DNA of 64,000 nucleotides. Source: Methanococcus voltae (GTDB taxonomy: Archaea > AGJL01 > Methanococci > Methanococcales > Methanococcaceae). Location: assembly GCF_024807655.1 (NCBI RefSeq), contig NZ_JANUCR010000002.1, positions 62,001-126,000 on the forward strand, read 5' to 3'. Position numbers and translations under genes: made by a program. Shown here in pieces: positions 2-9,238 of this stretch (its first letter is position 1; every line of letters begins with the position of its first letter). Below the pieces are notes generated by a model, which was given only the letters and a program-made list of their open reading frames with translations, did no database searches and was not told where the DNA came from.

Positions 2-235
2 GTAAAACAAGTAGTTGAAAATGTACCTGGTAAAGCAATAATGGGTAATGTAAGCACTTTTACTTTAGAAAATGGCACCCCTCAGTCCATAGAACGAATG
101 AGTAGTGCGTGCATAAAATTTGGCGTAGATATATTGTCTCCAGCTTGTGGTATTGGAGTTAGGACGAAATTGGAAAATATCCAAGCAATGGTAAATACTG
201 CAAAAAATTTCGATAATTCAAAAATAAATAATTAA
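2..235 (+). CDS. MtaA/MtbA-type methylcobamide:CoM methyltransferase, 3' end only
   Basis: The open frame runs in from the left edge, so only about 77 C-terminal residues are seen. They carry the end of a UroD-fold methyltransferase: a G-N-V strand, then the I-L-S-P-A-C-G-I-G loop and an R-T-x-L-E-N-I-x-A-M helix. In MtaA/MtbA that loop cysteine is the third zinc ligand that binds the thiol substrate. Family members move methyl groups between a corrinoid protein and coenzyme M. The gene lies 61 bp upstream of a corrinoid-activator gene in the same direction, which fits a methyl-transfer operon. A corrinoid protein, if present, would lie to the left. The methyl donor cannot be told from this fragment. 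Confidence 0.72.
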   Translation, partial: VKQVVENVPGKAIMGNVSTFTLENGTPQSIERMSSACIKFGVDILSPACGIGVRTKLENIQAMVNTAKNFDNSKINN

Positions 236-296: not shown

Positions 297-2366
297 ATGG
301 CAATAATTACAATAATTAATCCCAATATAAAAAATAATACTTTAAACTGTAGTTTTGGAGATTTACTTTTAAATATCTTACAAAAAAATGATTTAAAGAT
401 TGAAAGTCCTTGTGGTGGTGCAGGAACTTGTGGGAAATGCAAAGTTAAAGTTTTAAATCAAAATGAGAAAAATATTTCAAAACCAACCGTTGAAGAGTTA
501 AATTATCTTTCAAAAGACGAATTAAATGCAGGAATTCGTTTAAGCTGTTTAACTACCGTATATGGCGATTTAACTATCGATTTACTCAAAGATGCAAATA
601 TTTCAAACAATGAAGAAAGTAGTTCTCATAAAATACTGGCTGAAGGTTATATTCCAAATTTCGACTATAATCCTAATATAATAAAAATATCTTGCCCTTT
701 ATCCAAAAATACCTTAAAATTAATGGATATAGATTATTTAAAGAATAAAAATATCAAAACTTTTGAAAATGTTCTGTTAAATTTGATTAAAGAGTATTTA
801 ATTGATAATTCAAGCAACATAAAAAAACTAAACAAAACAAACAAAACAAACAAAAAAATATTAAATAATGATATTAATAATTTAAATTTTACTGTTAATT
901 TAAATGATTTGCAATTAATGGCATCAATACAAAAATTATCAGAAATATTGTCTAATAATTTATTCGATGACCAAAAAATATACGTTGATGCAATTTTTTC
1001 AGAAAATGAATTATTGGGTATAGAAATTAGGGGAAATAACTCAAATACCTCAAATACTTCAAATAATTCAAATAATCTAACTAATACCTTTGAAAACTCA
1101 AAATATTATGGTATAGCCATAGACATTGGAACAACAACCTTAGTGGCTTCATTAATTGATATAACTACTGGAAATGAATTATGTTCTGAAAGTAGGATTA
1201 ATCCTCAAAAACAATATGGTTTAGACGTTCTTTCAAGAATTGATTTTGCTAAAAAGAATGATAATGGATTAAAATTATTACATAACAGTATAATAGACTG
1301 TATAAATGAAATGATAGCTGAGTTATCTAAAAAACAAGGTATATCTAACGAATTAATTTATGAAATTGCTATATCTGCAAATACTACTATGTTACACTTT
1401 TTACTTAACATAGATGCTAAAACAATAGGTAAATCTCCTTATTTGCCAATATTTTTAAATTCTAAGTATTTAAAATCAAGTGATTTGAATATTAATATTT
1501 CAAAATTTGGTAGAGTTTATTGTTTACCTGGAGTTTCAGGATATATTGGTTCTGATATCGTAGCAGGCGTAGAAGTTTCTAATTTAGGTAATACTGATAA
1601 ATTAGTGCTTTTTATAGATATTGGCACTAATGGAGAAATAGTTTTATCTAACAAAGGTAAATTATCCGCTTGTTCGTGTGCAGCAGGTCCTGCACTTGAA
1701 GGTATGAATATAAGCTGCGGTATGCGAGCAGCGAATGGTGCAATCGAAGGTTTCAAAATAAAAGAAGATAATTCAACACCGGAAATAAACGTAATTGGAA
1801 ATTCTGAACCATTGGGGATTTGTGGTAGCGGAATATTGGATATAATTTCAGAAATCAATAAAGCTGGTTTAATAAATAAAACGGGACGTATAAAATCACC
1901 TAATATGGTAAATGAACTATATAAAGATATGATACTAGAAAAAGATGGTAAAAGGGCAATATTAATTTATAATTCAAAAAATAAAGATTCTAAAGAAATT
2001 TATATTTCTCAGAATGACATTAGACAAGTGCAACTGGCTAAAGCAGCGATAGTTTCAGGTTTTGAGGCACTATTGGCTGAATTAAGTGTTTCAATGCAAG
2101 ATTTGGATGAAGTAATAATTGCAGGTCAATTTGGAAAACACCTCAGTGAAGAGAGTCTCGCAGGTAGTGGGATTATTCCAAAGGAATTGAAAAATAAGGT
2201 TCGTTATATCGGTAATTCTTCAAAAATAGGTGCTTTAATGTGTTTATTGTCTAAAGAATCTCGCAAAAATATGGAAAATGTTGCCAATAAAATAGAATAT
2301 TGTGAATTATCTACAAAAGAAGGTTATGAAGATTTATTCATTAAAGCATTAAATTTTAACAAGTAA
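297..2366 (+). CDS. RACo-type ATP-dependent activator of corrinoid proteins (2Fe-2S + ASKHA/DUF4445)
   Basis: A 689-residue protein. Residues 1-95 form a plant-type [2Fe-2S] domain with C39-x5-C45-x2-C48 and C84. A lysine- and asparagine-rich linker region follows. From about residue 270 to the end there is an ASKHA ATPase-like domain (start I-D-I-G-T-T-T, late A-G-Q-F-G) typical of DUF4445. This architecture is that of RACo, which uses ATP to drive reduction of inactive Co(II) corrinoid protein to Co(I). It differs from Methanosarcina RamA, which lacks the N-terminal [2Fe-2S] domain and carries C-terminal [4Fe-4S] clusters; none are seen here. GAGG at 287-290 supports the start. The neighbouring methyltransferase piece suggests it serves that system. 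Confidence 0.8.
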   Translation: MAIITIINPNIKNNTLNCSFGDLLLNILQKNDLKIESPCGGAGTCGKCKVKVLNQNEKNISKPTVEELNYLSKDELNAGIRLSCLTTVYGDLTIDLLKDANISNNEESSSHKILAEGYIPNFDYNPNIIKISCPLSKNTLKLMDIDYLKNKNIKTFENVLLNLIKEYLIDNSSNIKKLNKTNKTNKKILNNDINNLNFTVNLNDLQLMASIQKLSEILSNNLFDDQKIYVDAIFSENELLGIEIRGNNSNTSNTSNNSNNLTNTFENSKYYGIAIDIGTTTLVASLIDITTGNELCSESRINPQKQYGLDVLSRIDFAKKNDNGLKLLHNSIIDCINEMIAELSKKQGISNELIYEIAISANTTMLHFLLNIDAKTIGKSPYLPIFLNSKYLKSSDLNINISKFGRVYCLPGVSGYIGSDIVAGVEVSNLGNTDKLVLFIDIGTNGEIVLSNKGKLSACSCAAGPALEGMNISCGMRAANGAIEGFKIKEDNSTPEINVIGNSEPLGICGSGILDIISEINKAGLINKTGRIKSPNMVNELYKDMILEKDGKRAILIYNSKNKDSKEIYISQNDIRQVQLAKAAIVSGFEALLAELSVSMQDLDEVIIAGQFGKHLSEESLAGSGIIPKELKNKVRYIGNSSKIGALMCLLSKESRKNMENVANKIEYCELSTKEGYEDLFIKALNFNK

Positions 2367-2472: not shown

Positions 2473-3420
2473 ATGAATAAAATAAAAATAGACGTTATTT
2501 CTGGATATTTAGGTTCTGGTAAAACTACATTCATACAAAAATTGATTAAATCTACTGAAAATGAGCGAATTGTAATTATTGAAAATGAATTTGGGGATAT
2601 AGGAATTGATGGAGATATATTAAGAGATAAAGGTTTAGATGTAGTAGAACTTGAAAAAGGATGTATTTGTTGTACTTTGAAATTAAACTTTTTAAAATCG
2701 CTTAATAATATTATCGAATACATGAAACCTACAAGAATCATCGTAGAACCTACAGGAATGGGTCTTTTAAGTCAAATAATAGGTATAGTCCTTGATGAAA
2801 ATAACGAAGATATTAAAAATAATTGCAAGTTGAATTCTGCAATTACTATAATCGACGGTGAAAATTACCTGGAACAAGTGGAATTGTTTGGAGATTTCTT
2901 CAATGACCAAATAAAAAATGCCAACAAGTTAATTATTAGTAAATCTCAATATATATCTCAAGAAGACTTAGATGATATTGTAGGGTCTTTAAGAGAGACA
3001 AATAACAATGCAGTAATCATTTCTGAAAATTGGGATTCCATTGATTTAGATAAATTTTTGAAAATCATCGACGAAAGTAATGAAAAAATTTCCCGTGAGT
3101 TGTATGTGGGGGATGTTCATAAAGCGATGCAAGGAGTTTCAAGCGTTTTGGTTAAATTTAATAATCCATTAAATATGGAATCTTTTAAAAACGCCGTAAA
3201 TGAATTAAAAACCAATAAATATGGTCTAATTATGAGGGGAAAAGGATTTATTAATTATTTAGATGAAAAAAATCCTGAAATTCAACGTTATGCCGAATTT
3301 AATTATGTGGGAAGTAACTATGAATTTGAAAATTTAAATACCAAGAAATCTTCTGAAATTTGCATAATTGGCAAAGAATTGGATGAAAAAGAAATATTGA
3401 ACTTATTTAATTTTAATTAA
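2473..3420 (+). CDS. CobW/P47K-family GTPase, putative metal chaperone
   Basis: A 315-residue COG0523-type protein. The Walker A motif G-Y-L-G-S-G-K-T-T is near the N-terminus. The family metal-binding motif C-I-C-C (within G-C-I-C-C-T-L-K) follows at about residue 57, then E-P-T-G and a CobW C-terminal domain ending in an E-N-L-N strand region. Such GTPases deliver zinc, cobalt or other metals to target proteins. Placed between a corrinoid activator and zinc-dependent UroD-fold methyltransferases, it may load zinc into the methyltransferase or cobalt into the corrinoid system; this is inference. GAGGG lies 7-11 bases upstream of the ATG. Two palindromes precede it. Confidence 0.82.
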   Translation: MNKIKIDVISGYLGSGKTTFIQKLIKSTENERIVIIENEFGDIGIDGDILRDKGLDVVELEKGCICCTLKLNFLKSLNNIIEYMKPTRIIVEPTGMGLLSQIIGIVLDENNEDIKNNCKLNSAITIIDGENYLEQVELFGDFFNDQIKNANKLIISKSQYISQEDLDDIVGSLRETNNNAVIISENWDSIDLDKFLKIIDESNEKISRELYVGDVHKAMQGVSSVLVKFNNPLNMESFKNAVNELKTNKYGLIMRGKGFINYLDEKNPEIQRYAEFNYVGSNYEFENLNTKKSSEICIIGKELDEKEILNLFNFN

Positions 3421-3623: not shown

Positions 3624-4955
3624 ATGTTATCGAAAGAAAATATATCTAAAATGATGAAATACAGATGGGTAATGTTTGCAGTTCTTGCAATAGTTTATTT
3701 CTTTGTATATTTCCACAGAACGTCTCTTGCAGTTATGGCAGGAGATTTAATGAGTACTTTCGGCGTAGGTGCTGGACAAATTGCGTTATTAGGTTCAGTT
3801 TATTTCTACGCTTATGCTTTAATGCAAATACCTTCAGGTGTTTTAGCCGATAAATACGGGCCTAAAAAAGTTGTTTCAATATTTACGTTAGTTGCAGCAT
3901 TAGGTGCTTTAATCACTGGTATAGCTACCGATTTTAATATGGTAATTTTAGGTAGGTTATTAATTGGTATTGGTGTAGCTGCGGTATATATTCCAATTAT
4001 GAAGGTACTTGCAACCTGGTTCAGAAAAAACGAATTTGCCACACAAAGTGGTTTAATGTTGGCAGTAGGTAATATCGGTGCTTTATCAGCAGCGGCACCT
4101 TTGGCAATGTTAAACACATCATTAGGTTGGCAAACTGTATTTTTAGGATTAGGTGTTTTTTCAGTACTTTTAGCAGTATTGTCATACATATTTATTAAAG
4201 ATAAGCCATCAGATAAGGGATTCCCTACAATTGCAGAAGTTGAAGCTTTGGAAAGTGGTAAAGAAGTTTCAAAAATCGCTGTAGAATCTCAAAAAGCTGA
4301 AACTCCTAAAGCTGAAGATACTATCGGTATCAAAGATGCTATGAAAATGGTTATTAAAGAAAAATCATTTTGGGCATTAGGTATTTGGTTCTTCTTTTTC
4401 TATGGGTCTTTAATGGCATATCAAGGTTTATGGGCAGGTCCTTACTTCCAAGATGTATTAGGTTGGGATAAATTAAATTATGCAGGACTTTTAATGTTTA
4501 TAGGCTTTGGTCTTATCTTAGGATGTCCTGTTGCAGGATATTTGGCAGATAAAGTTTTAAAATCAAGAAAAAAGACATTAATAATTGGTACGGTACTTTA
4601 TACAATATTATGGTTCGCAATATGGGCCTTAACAGGTGTTGATAATCCATTGATTTACCAAGTATTATACTTCTTATTTGGTTTCTTCGGTGGTTTCTTC
4701 GTTGTATCATATGGTCAGGTAAAATCATTGTTCCCTATATCCATTGCAGGTACTTCCACAGCTATATTAAACTTCTTCCCATTCGTAGGTGGTGCAGTGC
4801 TCCAACAGGTTTGTGGTGCAATAATTGCAAGCTATGGTATAACGGCAGCAGGTGGATTTACAATTGCAGGGTATCAAACAGCGTGGTTAACATTAGCAAT
4901 TGGTATGGTAATAGCTACTATATCCGTTTATTTCTCAAAAGAGAAAGGATTATAA
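3624..4955 (+). CDS. Major facilitator superfamily transporter
   Basis: A 443-residue integral membrane protein with about 12 hydrophobic segments in two halves. They are joined by a charged loop rich in Lys, Glu and Ala (about residues 195-240). The MFS signature appears as G-V-L-A-D-K-Y-G-P-K-K between helices 2 and 3, and its echo G-Y-L-A-D-K-V-L in the second half. GAGGT lies seven bases before the ATG. The substrate cannot be read from the sequence. Its place between the CobW/activator genes and a UroD-family protein makes a methylated compound or organic anion worth testing. I see no sign that it is broken. Confidence 0.85.
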   Translation: MLSKENISKMMKYRWVMFAVLAIVYFFVYFHRTSLAVMAGDLMSTFGVGAGQIALLGSVYFYAYALMQIPSGVLADKYGPKKVVSIFTLVAALGALITGIATDFNMVILGRLLIGIGVAAVYIPIMKVLATWFRKNEFATQSGLMLAVGNIGALSAAAPLAMLNTSLGWQTVFLGLGVFSVLLAVLSYIFIKDKPSDKGFPTIAEVEALESGKEVSKIAVESQKAETPKAEDTIGIKDAMKMVIKEKSFWALGIWFFFFYGSLMAYQGLWAGPYFQDVLGWDKLNYAGLLMFIGFGLILGCPVAGYLADKVLKSRKKTLIIGTVLYTILWFAIWALTGVDNPLIYQVLYFLFGFFGGFFVVSYGQVKSLFPISIAGTSTAILNFFPFVGGAVLQQVCGAIIASYGITAAGGFTIAGYQTAWLTLAIGMVIATISVYFSKEKGL

Positions 4956-4977: not shown

Positions 4978-5024
4978 TTACTAATAATTATTTAATTATT
5001 ATTTAATTATTATTTAATTATTGG
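4978..5024. repeat. AATTATTT tandem repeats
   Basis: About four imperfect copies of an 11-bp ATTTAATTATT unit follow the MFS gene. They are simple AT repeats with no apparent coding function. Confidence 0.6.
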
Positions 5025-5153
5025 TATACTACAATAAGATTATAGCAACCCCAAATATATTACTAAATCAATTATTCTATAAAATTTTTATTTTATATTA
5101 TCTTATTTTTTACTACTTATTTTTTTTATTTTTAAGTTATAGAATTTATTAAT

Positions 5154-5175
5154 TTAAAGGAGTACTAACCTTTAA
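5154..5175 (+). promoter_or_regulatory. Hairpin in the leader of the UroD-family gene
   Basis: A perfect seven-base stem, TTAAAGG (5154-5160) with CCTTTAA (5169-5175), encloses an eight-base loop. It ends about 20 bases before the chosen start codon. It could act in RNA or as an operator. Confidence 0.4.
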
Positions 5176-5194
5176 TTTGTCGATTGGTGAAATT

Positions 5195-6124
5195 ATGGAT
5201 ATGGATGTTAAAAGTGATAAAAAAACTGATTTTAAATGTATTAGTGATAATTTCGAAACAATACCTGATTTAATCGCTAAAAATTTTGAATTCCCCAAAG
5301 CCCATACGAATCTTGAAGATATGATTAACTTATCGAAAGCGATGAAAGATTCTAAAAAAGATATTTTTTGTAGAGTTCCATTTTGTAATACTGTTGAAGC
5401 TGAAGCATTTGGTGCTATTATTAAATTAGGTGATAATAAGTATGGCCCCCGAGTTGAAAAGTATATAATAAATTCAAATGAAGAATTGGCTAATTTTGAG
5501 ACTTTGGTGGATTTGACTATGCGAAAAGGTAGGATAACTAACGTTTTGTCTGCAGTAAATAACTTATCTGCTTCCGGAGAGTATGTTATTTTAAATATTT
5601 GTGGTCCTTTTACGGTTATTTCAGCTTTAATGGACCCTAAAATATTTTATAAGGAAATTAGAAAAAATCCGGAAAATGCAAAAAAATTAATAGATTATAT
5701 CGAGCAAGGTATTATAAATTATATGATTGAAGGCGTTAAAAATGGTGCTAAAATTATATCGTACTCTGATTCCGTAGGTACTTTGGACATAGTAGGACCA
5801 AGAATTTTTAAAAATTATAGTGGAATATCCAATAAAAGAATAATTGAGCAATATAAATTAAAATTAGCGGAATTATCTGATTTTAACGAATATAATGTGA
5901 TATTACACGTTTGCGGTAAATTATCTTCTTCTTTCGAAAATACGGAAATTTATACTCACTATCCTATTACTATGGATAGCAATGGTAAAAATTATGGGGA
6001 AATTCTATTGGATATCTTAAATACTTGCAATAATATTGGTTCCGACGTTAATGTATTAGGTAATGCTTGTATTAAAAAAACAAGTTCTAAATCAAAAAAT
6101 AGTACAATTTATAAATTAAAATAG
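5195..6124 (+). CDS. UroD-family (MtaA/MtbA-like) methyltransferase homologue, shortened C-terminus
   Basis: A 309-residue protein with UroD/MtaA features: E-A-E-A-F-G-A early, N-I-C-G-P-F-T central, Y-S-D-S-V-G-T, and the zinc-site motif L-H-V-C-G at about residue 241. It stops shortly after V-L-G-N-A-C. The roughly 50 residues holding the third zinc ligand (P-A-C-G loop) in MtaA/MtbA, present in the fragment at the left edge of this window, are absent. The other frames downstream do not restore them, so this is a true short form rather than a recent frameshift. GGTGA at 5186-5190 sets the start at 5195. A methyltransferase, a demethylase component or a non-catalytic partner are all possible. 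Confidence 0.7.
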   Translation: MDMDVKSDKKTDFKCISDNFETIPDLIAKNFEFPKAHTNLEDMINLSKAMKDSKKDIFCRVPFCNTVEAEAFGAIIKLGDNKYGPRVEKYIINSNEELANFETLVDLTMRKGRITNVLSAVNNLSASGEYVILNICGPFTVISALMDPKIFYKEIRKNPENAKKLIDYIEQGIINYMIEGVKNGAKIISYSDSVGTLDIVGPRIFKNYSGISNKRIIEQYKLKLAELSDFNEYNVILHVCGKLSSSFENTEIYTHYPITMDSNGKNYGEILLDILNTCNNIGSDVNVLGNACIKKTSSKSKNSTIYKLK

Positions 6125-6155
6125 TATTTACTGAATAAATTGTCTATTAAATCAT

Positions 6156-6174
6156 ATTTTTCTTGTTTTTCTTA
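6156..6174 (+). terminator. Probable T-tract terminator after the UroD-family gene
   Basis: Two runs of five T bases joined by short pyrimidine stretches lie 30-50 bp after the stop codon, between two convergent transcripts. Confidence 0.4.
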
Positions 6175-6240
6175 TTAGATTAGTAGTATTTTATTATGTT
6201 ATTACTCTTATTAGTATTACTCTTATTATTATTATTATTA

Positions 6241-7077
6241 TTATTCATAACATTTTAATGATATTCGATTAGTGTTGCCATAGGGTTTTCTGACTACTAT
6301 TCCATATAATTCCAACTTTCTAATGGTTCTCGAAACCTTTACTTTCGAGAGTCCAGTTTCTAAAACTATTTTATTTTGCAATAATTCTTTATTTTCACTT
6401 TCGTATAATAAATTATATATTTTTAATTCATCTTCTTTTAAATTCTTTAATTTTTCATTACTAATTCTAAATCTTTTTTCTTCTTTTTTTTCTTTTTTCT
6501 CTTCATTAATTTCTTTCGATTTAACTTCTTCATTTTTGAGAATATCTATTTTTTGATTTTCAACATTATTATCGTAATTCATATATTTTTTATTTGAAAT
6601 GTTTTCATCAACAGAATTATTTAATATGATATGTTCGCTATTTTTTTCAATTTCGTTAATTTCTTCAACTTTAATGTCTTCTTCAAATTCGATATATGAC
6701 GGTTCTTCTTCAAAATAGTCTAAATCTACAGTTTTATTTCCCATTTCAGAAATGTAATCGTTTTGGCTGTTTATATTATGAATTTTTTCGTTAATTTCTT
6801 CATTTTTGGCATATTTGTTGTCTAAACTTTTTATTAATTCATATTTAATATCTCCAATACAGGTAAGTTTTGAAAAGCAGTTTGTAGCAATTACTGAAAG
6901 CGCTAACATCATTATTACTTCATTAAGTGGATACATTTGTGGTGTAGCAATTGCTACAGGGTCTCCATTACCTATGGCTACCGAAACAGAAGTAATCCCT
7001 TTTGAAAACAACAATATGGATATGGAGAATACCGAACCTGCAAGTATAACTACATATGCCAAATCTTTTTTGTTCAT
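6241..7077 (-). CDS. Membrane-anchored winged-helix transcription regulator
   Basis: A 278-residue protein with two N-terminal hydrophobic segments (about residues 6-25 and 51-68) and a short outward loop between them. A long, acidic, Glu/Lys/Asn-rich linker follows (about 80-200), then a C-terminal winged helix (about 203-278). The recognition-helix region reads T-G-L-S-K-V-K-V-S-R-T-I-R-K-L and is followed by a wing. This suits a one-component sensor that holds its DNA-binding domain at the membrane. The start has AGTGGT just upstream. It is the second gene of a two-gene operon, 15 bp behind an exported protein. The signal sensed is unknown. Related membrane winged-helix regulators exist in other archaea; this one I cannot name. 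Confidence 0.7.
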   Translation of the reverse strand: MNKKDLAYVVILAGSVFSISILLFSKGITSVSVAIGNGDPVAIATPQMYPLNEVIMMLALSVIATNCFSKLTCIGDIKYELIKSLDNKYAKNEEINEKIHNINSQNDYISEMGNKTVDLDYFEEEPSYIEFEEDIKVEEINEIEKNSEHIILNNSVDENISNKKYMNYDNNVENQKIDILKNEEVKSKEINEEKKEKKEEKRFRISNEKLKNLKEDELKIYNLLYESENKELLQNKIVLETGLSKVKVSRTIRKLELYGIVVRKPYGNTNRISLKCYE

Positions 7078-7092
7078 ATTACCACTTTATAC

Positions 7093-7695
7093 CTATTGTA
7101 CCTTTATAACTGTTAAATCTTCAGGGTGGTTGTTTATCATCTTTTTAAGAGTATTATTCAAACACGCTTCTTGTTGGGTTGTTAAATTGAGCTGTTTTAT
7201 TTCATCGTCCGATAATGAAATATGACCATATATTTCCAATATTTTTTCCAATTGTTGTCTTGTTAAATTTAAATTTTTTAAATCATAATATGAATACACT
7301 TTATAAATCATGGGTCTTGATGAATTTTGTGATTCTTTAATATTAGGTACTAAAACCCAATCTAATTCTTTATCATCCTTTTTAAGCATCATACTTATAT
7401 TTTCAAAAACTGATTTGTTATTAATATGAATATTACCATATGTATCATAATTCACACTGTTAGGATATTCTTCAGAAATGTTGTGTAGTGCATATTTTAA
7501 TTCTCCATCTAAAGAGTCTAATGGTATGGTTGACACATATAATTCGCCACTGGTAATTTTGTAAGGTGGAGCATTGTTTTTAAAATTTCCTTCAATGTCA
7601 TCGCCAAACACTGTCCACAATATGTTGGCGGATATCATTGCTCCACTAACAAATGCAAGGATGCATATTAAAATTACAAGAATTATTTTTTTCAT
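7093..7695 (-). CDS. Exported or membrane-anchored protein of unknown function
   Basis: A 200-residue protein with one N-terminal hydrophobic segment (residues 4-25) acting as signal or anchor. The rest is hydrophilic and probably outside the cell. It has seven N-x-S/T sequons, usable by the archaeal oligosaccharyl transferase. A repeated L-N-L-T-x-Q-Q stretch occurs at about residues 142-148 and 169-175. No family recognised. It is the first gene of the operon with the membrane winged-helix regulator, which makes it a candidate sensory partner. GGAGG lies eight bases before the ATG, with a TATA box and repeated motifs further upstream. Confidence 0.6.
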   Translation of the reverse strand: MKKIILVILICILAFVSGAMISANILWTVFGDDIEGNFKNNAPPYKITSGELYVSTIPLDSLDGELKYALHNISEEYPNSVNYDTYGNIHINNKSVFENISMMLKKDDKELDWVLVPNIKESQNSSRPMIYKVYSYYDLKNLNLTRQQLEKILEIYGHISLSDDEIKQLNLTTQQEACLNNTLKKMINNHPEDLTVIKVQ

Positions 7696-7730
7696 GCTAT
7701 TTACCTCCCAGCATATTTTAGGTGAAATAC

Positions 7731-7740
7731 ACTTTATAAA
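7731..7740 (-). promoter_or_regulatory. TATA box of the regulator operon
   Basis: On the minus strand the sequence reads TTTATAAAGT, 36-45 bases before the start codon at 7695. Transcription would begin about 25 bases downstream, close to the GGAGG site. The first repeat of the operator array ends seven bases upstream. Confidence 0.5.
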
Positions 7741-7746
7741 TTATGT

Positions 7747-7815
7747 TGAAACGAGTTTTGGGGAATTTTAAATCTTGAAACGAGTTTTTTAAATTATAAA
7801 ATAACTGAAACGAGT
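7747..7815. promoter_or_regulatory. Triple direct repeat TGAAACGAGT, phased operator array
   Basis: Three exact copies of TGAAACGAGT lie at 7747-7756, 7776-7785 and 7806-7815, start-to-start 29 and 30 bp, about three helical turns. They sit directly upstream of the TATA box of the operon encoding the membrane winged-helix regulator. That is where an archaeal activator would bind. A looser inverted match to the TGAAAC core lies at 8002-8007 in front of the divergent gene. Confidence 0.6.
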
Positions 7816-7906
7816 CATTATTTTTAATTTTTAAAAGTATTTAATAATTTATACATTATATACTTAACGATTTGAGTATATTTTATCCAATTTATGACGT
7901 TAATAT

Positions 7907-7962
7907 AAAAAAATATAAAAAAATATAAAAAAATATAAAAAATAATATAAAAAATAATTTGC
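7907..7962. repeat. AT-rich tandem repeat
   Basis: Several copies of a 10-bp A-rich unit (ATATAAAAAA) sit between the two divergent promoters. Confidence 0.7.
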
Positions 7963-7988
7963 AATAAAAAAGATACTTAAAAACAGTG

Positions 7989-7997
7989 TTTATAATA
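7989..7997 (+). promoter_or_regulatory. TATA box of the sequon-rich secreted protein gene
   Basis: TTTATAATA preceded by an A-rich stretch that could serve as BRE. Initiation would be expected near 8015-8022, giving a leader of only about 30 bases that begins at or inside the hairpin at 8017-8039. Confidence 0.45.
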
Positions 7998-8016
7998 TAG
8001 TGTTTCAACCAAGTGT

Positions 8017-8039
8017 TTTTCGGGAGTAAGTCCCGGAGG
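8017..8039 (+). promoter_or_regulatory. Leader hairpin that can hide the ribosome binding site
   Basis: CGGGA (8021-8025) pairs perfectly with TCCCG (8031-8035) around a five-base loop. T8017-T8020 can extend the stem by U-G, U-A, U-G and U-G pairs. The whole GGAGG (8035-8039) could then be paired. It is one of the most GC-rich spots in the surrounding non-coding DNA. It may control translation of the secreted protein. Confidence 0.5.
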
Positions 8040-8048
8040 CCAATACAT

Positions 8049-8597
8049 ATGAATAAATTTACAAAAACTTCAGTGTCCTTATTGGTCTTACTCATATGTA
8101 TGATGGGTGTTTTTGCAAGTGATTTAAATGAATCTACTCAAACTGCAGACTCAAATAACATATGTGTGGAAAGTTGTGAAAATATTACGAACTACTTTAA
8201 TCATTCGTATGAAGGTCATCATAGACCTATGTTAAGAAATATGAATGGCACTCACGAATTTGGAAATTTTATAGATTTCACAAATGATACTTTTGAGAAT
8301 GGTAGACCACCATTTCCGATAGAAGTTATAAACTGTTGGAATTGTTCAAATGAACCATTAATTGAACCATTAAATGAAAGTATTTTGTGTAGCTATTATA
8401 ATTATTCTCCAGAGCAGATGAATGAAAGTATTTTGAAATATATCGTAAATGGTCCATGTAATTTAACTTTTGAAAATGGTACGCCTGTCAGACCTGGCAA
8501 TGACGTTAAATTTAGGGGATTTAAATTCAATGAATCAGATGTAAATTGTACTATGTTTCGAAATAGACTACCTGCTTTGATTAATGAAAGTAGTTAA
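8049..8597 (+). CDS. Small secreted, cysteine-containing protein rich in N-glycosylation sequons
   Basis: A 182-residue protein starting at the ATG nine bases after GGAGG; an in-frame GTG upstream at 8013 lacks such a site. Residues 1-24 are a signal peptide (basic start, then a hydrophobic core ending V-F-A-S). The mature part has 14 N-x-S/T sequons, about one per 11 residues, and seven cysteines. There is no second membrane segment. Methanococci N-glycosylate surface proteins at such sequons, so a densely glycosylated, possibly disulfide-linked surface or secreted protein is likely. No family recognised. It is transcribed away from the membrane regulator operon and may be its target. Confidence 0.6.
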   Translation: MNKFTKTSVSLLVLLICMMGVFASDLNESTQTADSNNICVESCENITNYFNHSYEGHHRPMLRNMNGTHEFGNFIDFTNDTFENGRPPFPIEVINCWNCSNEPLIEPLNESILCSYYNYSPEQMNESILKYIVNGPCNLTFENGTPVRPGNDVKFRGFKFNESDVNCTMFRNRLPALINESS

Positions 8598-9238
8598 TTA
8601 AATATTGCTCATATTATCTATAAGGACATAATTTACGAATAAATATGATTTTAGTTTAATAACTTAATTTAATTTATAAAATGGTTGTATTACATAAATA
8701 TAAAAGGATTAATAATATCACATAACTGAAAATATATTATAATAAGAACCTGATAATTATTCATCATTCGGGATATATTGTATATTTAATATGCCTCAAA
8801 CTATTGCTATATCATATCAAAATATCATAAAAACTTAACAAAACATATTACAACAACATTACAACAATATCTAAATAACATAAATTTACAAACGCAAATG
8901 GGTATTTTAGTCTCAAAATAGTATTATTTTATAATATTCCTCCAAGTATTATAAAATATAATTATTAACCTCAAATTACATTATTTAATAGTTATATTGA
9001 ATAAATAATTATAATGAATAAATTATTACCTCAATAGAGATTTAAAATATCCATTAAATTTACGAAACTGAAAATAGTATTATATACTTTATTTACACTT
9101 TTAAATATAATTTACGTATTTAATTTTTTATTTTTATTTTATTATATTTTTATTAATTTTATTAATTTTATTAAAATAATATATGGAATAATATTAAAAA
9201 AAGAATTTATATCTATTTAATTTTATATTTATTTAATT
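8598..9238. other. 641-bp gene-free AT-rich region
   Basis: Lies between the secreted-protein gene (+) and the ZPR1 gene (-), so both transcripts end here. No open frame with a ribosome binding site, no tRNA-like fold and no convincing promoter. T-rich stretches near 9120-9180 and CTCAA words at loosely regular distances are all I see. Confidence 0.5.

Follow-up and report, generated by a model that had tools for sequence, protein, structure and literature searches.

The open reading frame at positions 5195 to 6124 of the forward strand encodes a UroD-family protein of 309 amino acids that ends before the segment carrying the usual third zinc ligand and is most likely the Mlp1 of a type I mlp cluster. 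It was found in a window of 64,000 nucleotides, the whole stretch of DNA analyzed here, which corresponds to bases 62001-126000 of contig 2 in the 1.86 Mb Methanococcus voltae genome. We propose a working UroD-fold protein, short throughout its family, that belongs to a corrinoid methyl-transfer (methyl-selenide) cluster and in which a metal ligand would have been relocated, and we give this explanation about an even chance of being correct. The loss of the ligand segment is a trait of the protein family and not a quirk of the M. voltae copy.

The short protein begins with ATG and ends with TAG, and the GGTG and ATG at its start recur in two other loci (L008 and L009). It belongs to the UroD superfamily (PF01208), scoring 91.4 bits against a gathering cut-off of 23.9, but the match covers only positions 39-254 of the 346-position profile. 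As the earlier note had described, the zinc motif is present (H238-V-C240-G, 5906..5917, forward strand) and the P-A-C-G loop is missing. The C-terminus reads G289-N-A-C292-IKKTSSKSKNSTIYKLK, with 17 residues after Cys292. The neighboring fragment (2..235, forward strand) is the C-terminal part of a full-length Mlp3-type protein of 356 amino acids that starts upstream of the window, and it does contain the loop, as SPACG. Downstream of the short gene, no continuation of the protein was found in the other two frames, and a tblastn search of the window from 5001 to 9000 with the neighbor's 87-residue tail gave no match at an E value of 10. The claim that other frames do not restore the lost end was therefore borne out, and a frameshift or sequencing error was ruled out because no other frame continues the protein. 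The early end was also upheld, but its size, given as about 50 residues, was somewhat high. There are 69 residues after C240 compared to 95-105 in 27 Mlp3 proteins, a deficit of about 26-36; measured from the G-N point of strand 7, the protein is about 42 residues shorter than its Mlp3-type neighbor. The methylcobamide:CoM methyltransferases MtaA (4ay7) and MtbA share the fold and the H-x-C motif with the short protein, but they have a third zinc ligand on strand 8, a cysteine in a P-A-C-G type loop, which the short protein lacks. It also fell below the NCBIfam cut-offs of this group (NF004889, 160.9 against 244; MtaA, 97.4 against 400; MtbA, 82.1 against 600).

Full-length orthologues in sister species, which the earlier note took as the sign of a decayed copy, did not appear. 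Five of the six other Methanococcus genomes carry an orthologue (73, 72, 49, 49, and 46% identity), and all five have the same short end, while the sixth has no URO-D match at all. Of the 15 genus pairs, 11 had dS below 2.3, and their dN/dS ratios were 0.05-0.31; among the remaining four, one had a dS of 3.5 and three an infinite dS. These ratios, together with the recurrence of the same end in 65 proteins, indicate that the short end is beyond chance. Judged from the sequences, the gene is evidently under purifying selection and functional rather than decayed.

The short form recurs in many Clostridia. A close homologue (49-52% identity) lies between CobW and two double-cubane reductases in Clostridiaceae bacterium 14S0207. 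An intact short gene was found in at least 37 of the 225 genomes of this bacterium's order and a broken one in two more, and further short genes came from scans of the class, phylum, and order; all carrier counts from these searches are lower bounds. Archaea beyond the genus gave no short-type match in the 29 other genomes of the order that were searched. No relative of alignment A1 was found among viral contigs, and the plasmid collection yielded a single record, from Acetoanaerobium noterae, which is labeled a plasmid but is 2.6 Mb in size. Copies broken by internal stops were seen in a few clostridial genomes (L076 in G149, G126:C3:85830-86496, and L163 in G691), which is consistent with an accessory role. 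In another genome (G940, L152), two short UroD genes stand in tandem, each with a GHGC end.

Conservation within the short family was examined in 65 distinct proteins (57 plus eight added, from 10 rows minus two duplicates). The set of 57 was made from 63 rows by removing three fragments or broken copies and three duplicates. Median pairwise identity in the 65 was 33%, and the lowest was 14%. C240, Cys292 of the G-N-A-C motif (6068..6070, forward strand), and P62 were present in 65/65, though membership of the short class required a better score with an HMM built from 36 short proteins (later 57, with a tolerance of 0.9) than with Mlp2 and Mlp3 HMMs, and relatives without Cys292 could be under-sampled by this definition. 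Y267 was conserved in 64/65, and Cys15, on strand 1 close to where the barrel begins (5237..5239, forward strand), in 63/65 with gaps in the other two. Position 238 was more variable: histidine in 52, leucine in six, valine in three, glutamine in three, and isoleucine in one. The smaller sets agreed, since C15, C240, C292, and Y267 were invariant in the 36 and C240 and C292 in 57/57. None of the 65 has a P/S-x-C-G/S motif after C292, where the tail is 16-25 residues long. The strand-1 cysteine is invariant in Mlp3 too (C26, 27/27). Nothing equivalent to D275, N295, and the P-A-C-G loop, which are invariant in Mlp3, was seen in the columns of the 36 short proteins conserved at 90% or more.

The simplest placement of Cys292 is the end of strand 7, with the H-x-C strand two strands away; this relies on spacing geometry and on our own strand assignment. 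The distance from C240 to C292 was 41-53 residues (median 46) in the 65 short proteins. The 27 Mlp3 proteins have a strand-7 glycine 39-40 residues after the first zinc cysteine, which puts the residue three further on at 42-43, while the strand-8 cysteine follows the H-x-C cysteine by 73-74. The spacing thus matches the strand-7 point of Mlp3 better than its strand-8 cysteine. Homology of Cys292 to the strand-8 PAC cysteine was considered and judged unlikely: strand 7 fits the spacing better, and relatives with GHNC, GHWC, or GQMC do not keep the V-x-x-L-x-x-A-C look-alike. With hhalign, C292 was paired with a helix-7 cysteine of Mlp3 that is not a zinc ligand, and the C-terminal 50 residues aligned ambiguously to Mlp3. 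AF2 models, from two runs of three sequences each, were made for the window protein and for a homologue (L028). The nearest structure to both was MtaA 4ay7, with a Z score of 19.5 (3.2 Å, 242 residues aligned) for the window protein, tied with human UROD at 19.2, and of 20.9 (2.8 Å, 235 residues aligned) for the homologue. Both models have good cores but uninformative C-termini, with a pLDDT near 30 across the final 30 residues, and they align differently to 4ay7 there. Eight strands in the short protein are conceivable, as a beta-like V-W-K-I-x-L segment often closes the tail behind C292.

The gene content of the cluster matches the type I mlp or sdm cluster: a corrinoid protein, two Mlp2, Mlp3, RACo, CobW, and an MFS transporter. 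Upstream of the window are the corrinoid protein (227 aa) and URO-D proteins of 362 and 361 aa. The Mlp3-type gene is followed, all on the forward strand, by a RACo-type corrinoid reductive activase (297..2366), a CobW-family GTPase (2473..3420), and the MFS transporter (3624..4955), whose orthologue position, judged by gene order, fits MMJJ_01610 (SauU). The genome has four URO-D matches, and all of them (361, 362, and 356 aa and the short 309-aa protein) are in this cluster. The order is kept in two other genus genomes (G005 and G006) and rearranged in three (G001-G003), where a double-cubane type reductase is added. Identities in G005 were 71% for the short protein, 72% for RACo, 83% for CobW, 88% for Mlp3, 91% for the corrinoid protein, 92-94% for Mlp2, and 96% for MFS. 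In three other genomes of the family (G022, G033, and G035; loci L185-L187), neighboring URO-D genes include N-terminally shortened frames of 273-320 aa, in which the profile match begins only at 44-45 or 117-122.

According to the available text of the Kountz and Balskus preprint (version 4, PMC10418091), the type I mlp or sdm cluster is linked to methyl-selenide use, and M. voltae carries, besides a closely related pair of Mlp2 (the sdm genes), a previously unnoticed Mlp1 and Mlp3. SdmABC, a corrinoid protein and two Mlp2-type genes, is present upstream of the short gene, and its description (Niess and Klein 2004) did not include Mlp1, according to the same text. The short protein resembles the Mlp1 described there in cluster composition and in forming its own clade. 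It is encoded with a corrinoid protein, Ram/RACE (RACo), Mlp2, and Mlp3, and all 36 short proteins in our tree fell into one clade apart from Mlp2 and Mlp3 (support 0.92, midpoint root). Its probable orthology to ClMlp1 (CLJU_RS09360) was deduced from gene order, and the C. ljungdahlii order given in that text, Mlp1-Mlp2-corrinoid-Mlp3-Ram, also occurs in L048, L104, and L105. In L048 (Acetoanaerobium noterae NZ_CP154629.1), the cluster has additional genes that, judged by eye from their sequences, resemble an ABC transporter of the NitT/TauT type and a DUF169-like protein. Term searches of the main text of PMC10418091 found no mention of truncation, a shorter form, barrel, CobW, GTPase, or fusion, with "fused" occurring in the reference list only. 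Among the matches listed in a literature search, only this paper and PMC11097638 were directly relevant, and none was closer; RdhV is another UroD-type protein (PMC9888536, in the portion available). The Mlp1 family was therefore already named, and the truncation, the invariant Cys292, the RACo and CobW fusions, and the occurrence in Pyl/monomethylamine operons were seen here.

The company kept by the short gene was compared in 43 regions, 40 of which contain it. These 40 also have RACo (39), a corrinoid protein (37), Mlp3 (34), Mlp2 (32), and CobW (19), counts that are slightly low since the window's own region (L006) has no genes upstream of the window. The immediate same-strand upstream gene was RACo in 16/40 and CobW in 9/40, as raw counts that ignore kinship. 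The remaining 15 consisted of 12 unlabeled genes, two unlabeled genes on the other strand, and one Mlp2, and three of these 15 regions have fusions. One CobW~short fusion (G518) changes from CobW, which runs to residue 304, to the short protein from about residue 307. CobW-family proteins are metal-inserting GTPases, and this fusion therefore hints at metal loading. RACo~short fusions occur in three genomes: G628 (907 aa), G576 (924 aa), and G1091 (an open frame of 915).

The short protein or domain also follows mtmC-mtmB in four Pyl operons (G628, G576, G1091, and G1079). PylS, PylB, PylC, and PylD scored over the NCBIfam cut-off in G628, MtmB was recognized by Pfam in G628 and G576 once the in-frame TAG was read through, and tblastn found the same mtm/Pyl gene set in G1091 and G1079. 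A free-standing short gene adjoins RACo in G1079, where the RACo matches are in pieces of different frame. MtmB and Pyl matches were present in only four of the 48 region loci compared, and since it was the short gene that led to these Pyl clusters, they do not give the share of Pyl clusters that lack it. Beside a pyl-mtm operon, a 450-aa protein (L178:12861-14213) has an MtaA/CmuA-like domain and a weak, below-cut-off thioredoxin-like match. Because the short protein occurs with two methyl donors (methyl-selenides and also monomethylamine, the latter in four genomes) and keeps company with RACo and the corrinoid protein, we place it at the corrinoid step. The fusions and the Pyl operons suggest that this step is shared, more than they suggest a single substrate.

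A link to selenium was seen in the clostridial order, where selD scored over the cut-off in 147/225 genomes. It was present in 34/37 genomes with an intact short gene compared to 113/188 of the rest (Fisher p 1e-4, kinship ignored). The three short-gene genomes without it (G179, G180, and G188) all have a C-x-x-C variant end; in these loci (L080, L077, and L081, respectively), the end is GHKC-[MI]-[NQ]-C, where another cysteine stands three positions beyond the invariant one. According to the available portion of PMC11097638, M. maripaludis JJ without selenium upregulates MMJJ_01650-70 by 5.6-7.8 log2 and MMJJ_01610, a putative transporter, by 6.3 log2. The gene order in L049 is MFS-short-CobW-RACo-Mlp3-Mlp2-corrinoid, with the short gene 56 bases behind the MFS gene. 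If G001 resembles strain JJ, the short gene would be MMJJ_01620 by this order.

In the explanation we favor, strand 8 would be gone from the short protein, taking the customary third zinc ligand with it, and Cys292, placed where strand 7 ends, would join C240 and H238 to complete the metal site. C15 may contribute, most of all in proteins without the histidine, and CobW may load the metal of this site. Less firmly, the barrel would dock on the cluster's corrinoid protein and shuttle a methyl group between cobalt and a thiol or selenol bound to the metal; the methyl-selenide and methylamine systems would have this step in common. Counting against this explanation are the 13/65 short proteins without His238, the low model confidence around C292, the ambiguous C-terminal alignment with its hhalign pairing, and the lack of equivalents of the Mlp3 invariants. 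The earlier note had offered two readings, that the G-N-A-C cysteine substitutes for the lost ligand or that the protein is a non-catalytic partner, which are not mutually exclusive and each found partial support: the 65/65 conservation of Cys292 would favor the former and the RACo and CobW fusions the latter, while metal binding and activity are what we infer. A wider proposal, which we consider possible though doubtful, is that the barrel without its last strand is a general corrinoid-handling module with a CobW-loaded, strand-7 metal site that works with RACo in both systems.

Another explanation is that the short protein is a non-catalytic or re-purposed partner of RACo, whose barrel binds the corrinoid protein and presents cobalt for reductive reactivation while its cysteines bind a structural or ligand-exchanging metal. 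The frequent RACo and CobW genes upstream, the three RACo fusions, the occurrence with a different substrate system (mtmCB-pyl), and the accessory status suggested by the frequent absence of Mlp1 from clusters (PMC10418091, available text) all agree with such a partner. However, the cysteines of the methyltransferase site are kept in 65/65, the three fusions are in one operon type and may represent one event, and the adjacency counts are raw and lack a chance control, with 15/40 upstream genes being neither RACo nor CobW. We regard this explanation as unlikely. Hand-over of a methyl group to a thiol or selenol is preferred over assistance of reactivation, as far as the sequences indicate. The available text of PMC10418091 proposes instead that Mlp1 is a substrate-specific Se/S-methyltransferase with a His-Cys-Cys zinc site, demethylating, for example, methyl-selenocysteine or selenomethionine. 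It reports a selenide assay for ClMlp2 and states that Mlps are His-Cys-Cys except several Mlps1, and the cluster context and the selD association fit. We find this distinctly improbable, as 13/65 lack the histidine, the short gene is found in mtmCB-pyl operons, and M. maripaludis uses seleno-amino acids only when their concentration is unphysiologically high (PMC11097638, available portion). A decaying gene fragment would explain why the short gene is among the faster-evolving genes of the cluster (71% in G005) and why broken copies occur in some clostridial genomes. This has a negligible chance of being right, given a dN/dS well below 1 and the same end in 65 proteins, and the conserved short orthologues refute it.

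Methyl-group transport in methanogens, acetogens, and gut bacteria is the work of corrinoid methyltransferases together with their activases. If our explanation is true, a zinc site can move between the strands of a TIM barrel, with a catalytic segment lost and a candidate substitute cysteine strictly conserved. The fusion to an activase suggests that the short protein may be an additional component of corrinoid activation or methyl hand-over.
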